A stretch of 64,000 nucleotides of DNA from positions 248,001 to 312,000 of the forward strand of contig JAFMJI010000001.1 of NCBI GenBank assembly GCA_017853575.1. Direction: 5' to 3'. The notes below the pieces were generated by a model. That model did not search any database. It was given only the letters and a program-made list of their open reading frames with translations, and was not told the origin of the DNA. Below, in pieces: positions 9,583 through 10,677 of this stretch (positions are counted from its first letter, which is position 1; each line of letters begins with the position of its first letter). Position numbers and translations under genes: made by a program. Source of the stretch: Chitinophagaceae bacterium. GTDB lineage: Bacteria; Bacteroidota; Bacteroidia; Chitinophagales; Chitinophagaceae.

Positions 9583-10677
9583 ATGTATCAGTTGCTCAGA
9601 AATATACTTTTCCTTCTAGAAGCAGAACAGGCACATTATTTTTCCATGAACCTGTTGAAGGCTGTTTGTAAAATTCCACCCGTGAAAGCACTGATAAAAA
9701 AACTTTTTTCGGTGAGCGGCGATTCGCTTTCCAAAGAAATATTCGGACTTCATTTTAGGAACAGCTTAGGACTGGGAGCAGGATTTGATAAGAATGCAGT
9801 CTATTTAAATGAATTGGAAACGCTGGGATTCGGATTTGTTGAAATAGGTACTGTCACACCCCTTCCGCAAGCTGGAAACGAAAAACCCAGATTGTTTAGG
9901 ATCCCTTCAGATAAAGCACTGATCAATAGAATGGGATTTAATAATGATGGAGTTGAAGTTATTAAAGAGAGGTTGAGCATTTATAAAATGGGACGAGGCC
10001 TGCCTGCCGGACAGGCAGGGACAATGCCTGCCTGCCGGACAGGCAGGGACAATGGACAAGGGACAATGATCATTGGAGGAAATATTGGAAAAAATAAAAT
10101 CACTCCCAATGAAGAAGCATGGAAAGATTATCTGATTTGCTTTAATGAACTTTTTGATGTGGTGGATTATTTTGTTGTCAACGTAAGCTCCCCCAATACA
10201 CCTGGGCTCAGAGCATTGCAGGAAAAAGATGCATTGCTTGAGATTTTACAAAAGTTGCAAGACAACAACCAATCCAGAAAAAATCCAAAACCACTGCTGT
10301 TAAAAATTGCTCCTGATGTAACATCTGAGCAATTGATGGATATCGCAGCAATTTGCAAAGAAGTGAAGTTGGATGGATTGGTATCAAGCAATACAACGAT
10401 CGACAGAAACGCATTAAGTAAATTCAATCAGCAAAAAGCATCACAAATTGGTGCGGGTGGATTAAGTGGAAAACCGTTAAAAGATAAATCAGATGCTGTT
10501 TTATCAGAATTGATTCACCTTACAAATGGAAATATTCCTATCATTGCGAGTGGTGGTGTTTTTACAAAAAAAGATTACCAGGATAAAATAGATAAAGGTG
10601 CAGCAATGGTTCAGGTATGGACAGGATTCATTTATGAAGGTCCGGGTATTGTTAGAAAAATTTTATCCGCGCAATAG
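9583..10677 (+). CDS. pyrD: Dihydroorotate dehydrogenase (quinone type) with repeat insertion
   Basis: It oxidises dihydroorotate to orotate in pyrimidine synthesis; the N-terminal helices and FMN-site motifs mark class 2 (membrane, quinone-linked). Visible are FGLHFRNSLGLGAGFDKNA, VEIGTVTPLPQAGNEKPR, NRMGFNNDG, VNVSSPNTPGL with the catalytic serine, GLVSSNTT and ASGGVFTKKD. The start MYQLLRNILFLLEAEQAH matches the family, so longer upstream readings are rejected. Residues 136-161 (MGRGLPAGQAGT...GQGT) are not part of the family and come from two tandem palindromes plus a G-rich tail; the frame is kept and IIGGNIGKNK resumes directly. The 3' end overlaps convergent rsmE by 15 bp. Confidence 0.93.
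   Translation: MYQLLRNILFLLEAEQAHYFSMNLLKAVCKIPPVKALIKKLFSVSGDSLSKEIFGLHFRNSLGLGAGFDKNAVYLNELETLGFGFVEIGTVTPLPQAGNEKPRLFRIPSDKALINRMGFNNDGVEVIKERLSIYKMGRGLPAGQAGTMPACRTGRDNGQGTMIIGGNIGKNKITPNEEAWKDYLICFNELFDVVDYFVVNVSSPNTPGLRALQEKDALLEILQKLQDNNQSRKNPKPLLLKIAPDVTSEQLMDIAAICKEVKLDGLVSSNTTIDRNALSKFNQQKASQIGAGGLSGKPLKDKSDAVLSELIHLTNGNIPIIASGGVFTKKDYQDKIDKGAAMVQVWTGFIYEGPGIVRKILSAQ
9991..10068 (+). repeat. Tandem palindromic repeat inserted in frame in pyrD
   Basis: Two copies of a 28-bp unit start at 9999 and 10027. Each holds 8-bp arms CCTGCCTG and CAGGCAGG around a CCGGA loop (arms 9999-10006/10012-10019 and 10027-10034/10040-10047), followed by GGACAAT. A tail reading GGACAAGGGACAATG completes the block. 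GC content is far above the surrounding gene. The 28-bp period shifts frame between copies, so copy one encodes LPAGQAG and copy two MPACRTGR, yet the whole block is a multiple of three. Confidence 0.85.

Follow-up and report, generated by a model that had tools for sequence, protein, structure and literature searches.

A composite of palindromes and heptanucleotide repeats in frame within pyrD of a Chitinophagaceae bacterium, at a loop filled by different repeats in relatives

Palindromic repeats lodged in frame inside conserved protein genes have been described as Rickettsia palindromic elements (RPEs) of 105-146 bp, and the available part of that report also records an RPE-bearing guanylate kinase that stayed active (PMC2229807). 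REPs of the GTAG and CGTC kinds are palindromes of 20-40 bp, some of them in genes, and the accessible text offers a precedent for a shared site, with REPs at about one recB site in two Xanthomonas species (PMC3733652). The GGGNATC heptads of Xanthomonas and Nostoc are placed by the excerpted account on the coding strand, no more than 50 bp from stop codons (PMC4692102). TAACTGA heptamer direct repeats, whose hosts include five Bacteroidetes, usually lie immediately ahead of start codons in the main species, and some are in ORFs, mainly at protein ends, according to the portion of the source at hand (PMC4679880). In-frame palindromes and G-rich heptads behind stop codons are, as kinds, already known. 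In the one literature library searched, we found nothing on the GGGACRA unit, the 21-bp palindrome, the composite of the two or a recurrent PyrD insertion, and GGGACAAGGGAC was matched only as that string, under titles on other subjects. The locus described here makes recurrent in-frame insertion at one loop of an essential enzyme traceable, with sister species in which the state is empty, simple or nested. It also makes the abundance of bacterial heptanucleotides testable: there are several units, the period is mostly the same, the strand bias is strong and the position behind stops is fixed. In addition, it points to a stop-free, frame-neutral 21-bp palindrome in several families of the phylum and in viral contigs.

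The window (the whole 64,000-nucleotide stretch analyzed) carries pyrD on the forward strand at 9583-10677, encoding a class 2 dihydroorotate dehydrogenase. A 78-bp composite insert occupies 9991-10068 of the same strand in frame, and consists of a heptad array carrying two palindromes. The palindrome unit CCTGCCTGCCGGACAGGCAGG is present in two identical 21-bp copies, at 9999-10019 (read as (G)LPAGQAG) and 10027-10047 (read as PACRTGR), against a mean of 0.00 expected from window shuffles. Around them lie, all on the forward strand, the heptad array GGACGAGG to the left of copy 1 (9991-9998), one heptad GACAATG between the copies (10020-10026) and the array GACAATG GACAAGG GACAATG to the right of copy 2 (10048-10068). 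When the palindromes are removed by script, GGACGAG GGACAAT GGACAAT GGACAAG GGACAAT G remains, so that the 36 nt outside the palindromes are five tandem GGACRAN heptads plus one base. The preliminary description, made from the sequence alone, was right about a palindromic repeat in frame inside pyrD and about its contrasting base composition: insert GC is 0.654 against 0.369 in the rest of the gene, and exceeds that of all sampled 78-bp windows (steps of 13; highest 0.641). Its repeat unit of 28 bp with 8-bp arms has to be redrawn, since the palindrome is 21 bp and the 28 bp are a palindrome plus one heptad. The G-rich tail that it noted does exist (GGACAATGGACAAGGGACAATG, 10047-10068) and belongs to a second repeat type, the period-7 array. 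Nor are two copies plus the tail needed to keep the frame, as it supposed, because a single palindrome, with seven codons and no stop in any of six frames, is already frame-neutral.

The gene is assigned from the Pfam family DHO_dh (E value, 7.5e-76), relatives in the PDB and 37% identity to Escherichia coli PyrD, and the protein has a single match in its own genome. The orotidine decarboxylase family is represented there by two matches above the cut-off, and therefore the pyrimidine pathway served by pyrD is plausibly in use in the host. All residues that are invariant across 29 aligned PyrDs are retained. By alignment, the insert falls at about residues 128-134 of E. coli PyrD, directly before VLGINIGKNK at a helix/strand junction. 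In TIM barrels, loops of the helix-to-strand kind lie on the barrel face distant from the active site, and on this view, which combines sequence alignment with general knowledge of the fold, the insert would sit on that distant face. Counted from NDG up to the last residue ahead of IIGG, the window PyrD has 42 residues; G024 and G022, its nearest relatives, have 28. The net gain is thus 14 residues, not the 26 originally proposed, and equals two palindromes of seven codons each; without them the loop matches those of both relatives in length. The heptads occupy the room of the native loop, and the palindromes supply the net extra length.

The repeat is not confined to pyrD, an outcome that the preliminary description had left to a whole-genome search. 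Allowing up to two mismatches, the palindrome is found at nine distinct sites of its own genome, and two 20-bp variants were seen in addition; GGGACRA-type heptads abut all 11 of these sites on at least one side, as judged by eye. The heptad pattern GGGACRAGGGACRAG, also with up to two mismatches, yields 117 overlapping matches against 13 for the reversed control. Among the matches listed, where weaker sites may be missing, GGGACRA-type arrays stand at about thirty places, and 29 of these were classified by eye from the ORF listing (C11:3805, C12:22696, C15:138429, C15:144074, C20:8540 and C32:63416 were left out). Fourteen of the 29 are in sense orientation and follow a stop codon at a distance of 0-15 nt, including one that overlaps the ORF end by one base (C4:16614) and one that is also inside an ORF starting just ahead of it (C4:7683). 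Another 12 lie within an ORF in sense, and three (C11:1918, C37:2036 and C40:4021) fall outside the sense rule. Sense placement behind a stop or in an ORF therefore holds for 26/29 among the matches listed (binomial P = 1.5e-5); of simulated random places, approximately 1% follow a stop in sense at a distance of up to 20 nt. A scan of random stretches of the genome, a sparse sample, gave three arrays in 464 kb.

The ORFs that carry sense arrays encode, by Pfam, PlsX, MiaA, MetH, PcrA/UvrD, DeoC and SufE as well as PyrD, together with an altronate dehydratase-like protein, a FAD-dependent protein and a PSP1 protein; the remaining two are a 266-aa ORF without a Pfam match and a 134-aa ORF that we take to be PadR-like from its appearance. 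At the array, MiaA has 41 residues (185-225) compared to 12 in a solved homologue, PlsX has 28 (22-49) compared to 6 in a homologue with a weak N-terminal match, and PcrA/UvrD has 128 residues over 87 profile positions, with almost no extra residues in MetH. The window itself holds a second GGGACRA array at 675-706 on the forward strand, in frame in a FAD-dependent oxidoreductase-like gene, and heptads of G013 (L215) lie at an apparently matching place.

Compared with the described systems, as far as the available texts characterize them, the palindromes resemble RPEs in that they also stand in frame in conserved protein genes. This part of the parallel drawn in the preliminary description holds, and size and setting depart from it: here a 21-bp palindrome sits in heptad arrays and occurs in several Bacteroidota families and viral contigs (PMC2229807). 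An RPE was rejected as a candidate on its size, with 21 bp for the palindrome and 78 bp for the composite against 105-146 bp for RPEs, which have a long stem-loop and terminal inverted repeats. The own-genome arrays share with GGGNATC heptads a period of 7, a G3N4 unit and G-quadruplex potential, and differ from them in the unit GGGACRA, the nested palindromes and the many in-ORF copies (PMC4692102). They are tandem 7-bp units with G3 tracts; most G tracts in the PyrD copy are GG, so this copy conforms only in part. Proximity to a stop, within 50 bp, is seen in the same 14/29 arrays among the matches listed, whereas the PyrD copy is inside its gene. The unit GGACRAN also sets the repeats apart from TAACTGA heptamers (PMC4679880). 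Unlike REPs, the copies have neither a GTAG nor a CGTC tail, and there is no match to PF01797 (PMC3733652): a profile search for this family gave 0 matches in the own genome and matches in 5 of 14 control genomes. On that result, from the one transposase family searched, a RAYT-driven REP was rejected.

Beyond its own genome, the exact 21-bp palindrome occurs in 13/395 genomes of the phylum and 26/396 of the order (own genome included in both), with 0 for the reversed control. It is also present in 27 stretches of IMG/VR contigs (L305-L331), again with 0 for the reversed pattern. The idea of a dispersed palindromic repeat that is tolerated in frame is upheld, but the palindrome is not limited to this lineage, to which the preliminary description had assigned it. 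Flanking sequences in other genomes are unrelated, and some of them are other repeats. In bacterial ORFs elsewhere, the palindrome is read as LPAGQAG or LPxRQAG in 7/7 copies of one set and 14/16 of another (21 of 23 together), where one third is expected; a further 11 and 12 copies, respectively, lie outside long ORFs. The LPAGQAG-type frame is used by 5 of 7 copies in the own genome. One of the remaining two, in DeoC, had been assigned by script to a longer overlapping ORF and reads as LPAGQAG type in the DeoC frame, which leaves PyrD copy 2 (PACRTGR) as the true exception. The simplest reading of the bacterial bias would be selection for a mild, cysteine-free peptide. Viral in-ORF copies are in this frame in 5 of 21 cases, which we read as no frame bias, in a count where the longest ORFs of GC-rich contigs may be shadow ORFs. 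As side observations, TCG then follows the first listed palindrome copy in 11 of the 27 viral stretches, and in L289 and L290, from another order, the palindrome lies within GTCATTGCGAG...AAGCAATC-like repeats.

Among relatives, the PyrD loop is repeatedly occupied by different repeats. PyrD loci were compared for 29 of 36 relatives of the genus, which as drawn by the tool is broad, falls into more than one group on the PyrD tree and has named Chitinophagaceae among its rows. GGGACRA heptads fill the loop in G025 and G002, and a compound ACCACCCCTC...GGAGGGGAG palindrome fills it in G014, G012, G006 and G026. The other 23 have neither, with one loop (G023) that is long and of other sequence. 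An insert in all PyrD relatives, one outcome considered in the preliminary description, is therefore not what we see; most relatives' loops are without it. That description also looked to sister species for an empty site, and one exists for the related compound: compared with G014, whose compound measures 69 bp, G004 is cleanly empty at the site, and the compound is missing from G018 too. For the window's own insert, the loops of G024 and G022 differ throughout from the window loop, and no near strain shows its junctions. G012 and G006 go beyond G014 by a net 21-nt step that holds a 20-bp version of the palindrome, plus an 18-nt step. Nested ACCACCCCTC...GGAGGGGAG palindromes with inner palindromes (L071, L073, L078 and L082) were also noted as a family distinct from that of the window.

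For named relatives, 80 PyrD genes were fetched and 79 parsed, one being identical in sequence to that of G007. Four of these hold other heptads in the loop, namely, GTCGACA (L127), CCCCAAA (L120), TCACGRC (L139) and CTCAAAC (L181), and heptads also appear elsewhere in PyrD, near residues 50, 210 and 265 (L139, L141, L166, L131, L120 and L127). On a PyrD tree of 109 rows, built by a quick method with the loop left out, the 11 filled rows require at least eight changes of state, gains and losses counted together, of which six are forced by starred branches. The filled rows are clustered, with 2/500 shuffles giving an equally low count. A longer heptad pattern was found in 14 of 60 genomes including the own, 14 within the 37 of the window's genus and 0 in 22 other genera; in G026, the heptad pattern is not above its control (2 versus 4). 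Placement in the other genomes of the genus is similar: of 22 arrays, 11 lie 3' of a stop in sense (gaps of approximately 0 to 383 nt), 8/8 in-ORF arrays are in sense with 0 antisense, and 3 are placed otherwise. Stretches of G002 gave six arrays, four behind stops in sense, one in an ORF in sense and one at a contig edge. In MiaA, the matching segment measures 62 aa in the own genome and 59 in G013, where the heptads have drifted; five relatives have 45-46 and another five have 31-37, in a comparison that left out 16 of 28 loci as unparsed.

We scanned 109 PyrD loops for arrays with periods of 4-15. Six contained a period-7 array, three of these also one of period 14, and no other period was detected; the window's own loop is below the threshold because the palindromes interrupt its array. 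Control windows from PyrD held a heptad array in 6/1137 cases (Fisher P = 2.3e-4 against 6/109 loops), and since these windows also hold heptads, several sites in PyrD, the loop among them, are tolerant. The rest of the PyrD genes yielded six more arrays of period 7 and one of period 11 (L118). In stretches of eight genomes, some of them centered on PyrD and so favoring such arrays, 26 of 41 arrays have period 7 or 14, and in four further samples the count is 3 of 8 (29/49 overall). It varies by sample, from 0/4 in G009 plus G030 to 3/4 in G114, and a 50-kb stretch from E. coli had no array. That the period within genes is not a multiple of three argues for an origin of the arrays in a process blind to frame. 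Separately, G009 carries 9-base CTTCAACCC arrays (L393:89 and 5223), and period 7 is therefore not the sole period in the genus.

The sequences establish the anatomy of the insert, the dispersal, the loop lengths, the repeated filling of this loop by differing repeats and an empty site for a related compound. We consider it probable, on balance, that two dispersed repeats were combined here, a heptad array that filled the native loop and a palindrome that entered later, spread by patch copying. A G-rich GGGACRA-type array would first have taken the place of the native 12-residue loop before the strand that leads into IIGGNIGKNK. The 21-bp palindrome would then have entered the array, in two separate events or in a single one, with the 28-bp palindrome-plus-heptad being duplicated in the latter case. 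Arrays may reach new sites when, at a stalled fork or a break, a short patch of another array is copied; template switching or gene conversion would presumably carry this out, without a dedicated transposase. They may grow and shrink by whole units through slippage; no template-switch copying event was observed in the compared sequences. The sense bias would follow if the coding strand tolerates G-rich repeats, with an RNA that may form a G-quadruplex, and the template strand tolerates them poorly. Both the stop-free palindrome and a stop-free heptad array are open in all three frames, so passage through genes is possible; it would require a net change that is a multiple of three and a tolerant loop. 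Repeats would be retained where they are harmless, behind stops and in loops, and a filter on survival by frame and loop position is well supported. The PyrD copy itself would have no function of its own and be kept through its position away from the active site. A bolder version, which we regard as very unlikely, would have a fixed seven-base repeat-writing process in Chitinophagaceae-like Bacteroidota, such as a stepwise copier that is RNA-templated or bound to a polymerase. Its unit would drift freely between species and be laid on the coding strand in or behind transcribed genes, and the palindrome, three steps long, would be copied by the process or target its product.

Other origins have to be weighed against patch copying. 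The arrays might be functional 3' UTR G-quadruplexes that shape mRNA ends, with in-gene copies as spill-over or with a translational role, a reading we hold possible if rather unlikely. It would suit the 14/29 arrays (among the matches listed) 0-15 nt behind stops in sense, the similar placement reported for GGGNATC heptads in the accessible text (PMC4692102) and the arrays of L048, which face each other across a terminator-like hairpin (by eye). Folding points the same way for sense arrays: ViennaRNA with G-quadruplex terms predicts G-quadruplexes of -8.4 to -10.9 kcal/mol in three of them, one being the G025 PyrD loop, and 0 kcal/mol, without a G-quadruplex, in an antisense array. The window PyrD insert, however, is predicted with its flanks to form a strong hairpin (-45.8 kcal/mol, z = -6.96), and no G-quadruplex is predicted there; moreover, the in-gene copies belong to housekeeping enzymes, in several cases to a loop or tail, which fits tolerance. 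We think it unlikely that a transposase mobilizes the palindrome as a non-autonomous element, in the way that RAYTs supposedly move REPs, with heptads as its preferred target. Exact copies between unrelated flanks, in viral contigs and in other families, with a reversed control of 0, would agree with this, as would the net 21-nt step from G014 to G012 and G006. Against it stand the 0 matches to PF01797, the sole transposase family searched, in the own genome, the missing GTAG or CGTC tail at the copies read, heptads abutting 11/11 own-genome sites, and target-site duplications, which were not seen.

Patch copying is also to be set against local origin. Slippage in purine-rich loop codons could make repeats in place without dispersal, given that empty loops (e.g., G004 and G018) are purine-rich and that heptads can drift at one site, as in MiaA of G013. 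Yet the GGGACRA unit recurs at about thirty unrelated places among the matches listed, the period of 7 in coding sequence is not a multiple of three, and the palindrome, identical elsewhere, stays unexplained; we therefore regard this origin as quite unlikely, and local slippage alone was rejected on the recurrence of the unit. An assembly or binning artefact might be suspected in a genome of 40 contigs, and is extremely unlikely in view of the kept frame, the 422-kb contig and the matching or other repeats in the PyrD loop of other assemblies.

Some further arrangements of arrays were noted. Heptad arrays face each other at L048, L049 and L052 (between convergent gene ends) and also at L050 and L051. 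A second period-7 array of GTTGACAGTTAAC-like sequence adjoins the GGGACRA array at L003, L006, L055, L056, L062 and L063. In the PlsX ORF (L050:859-1018), the heptads stand beside a 9-base array of the ACAACAACG kind, with in-frame read-through.
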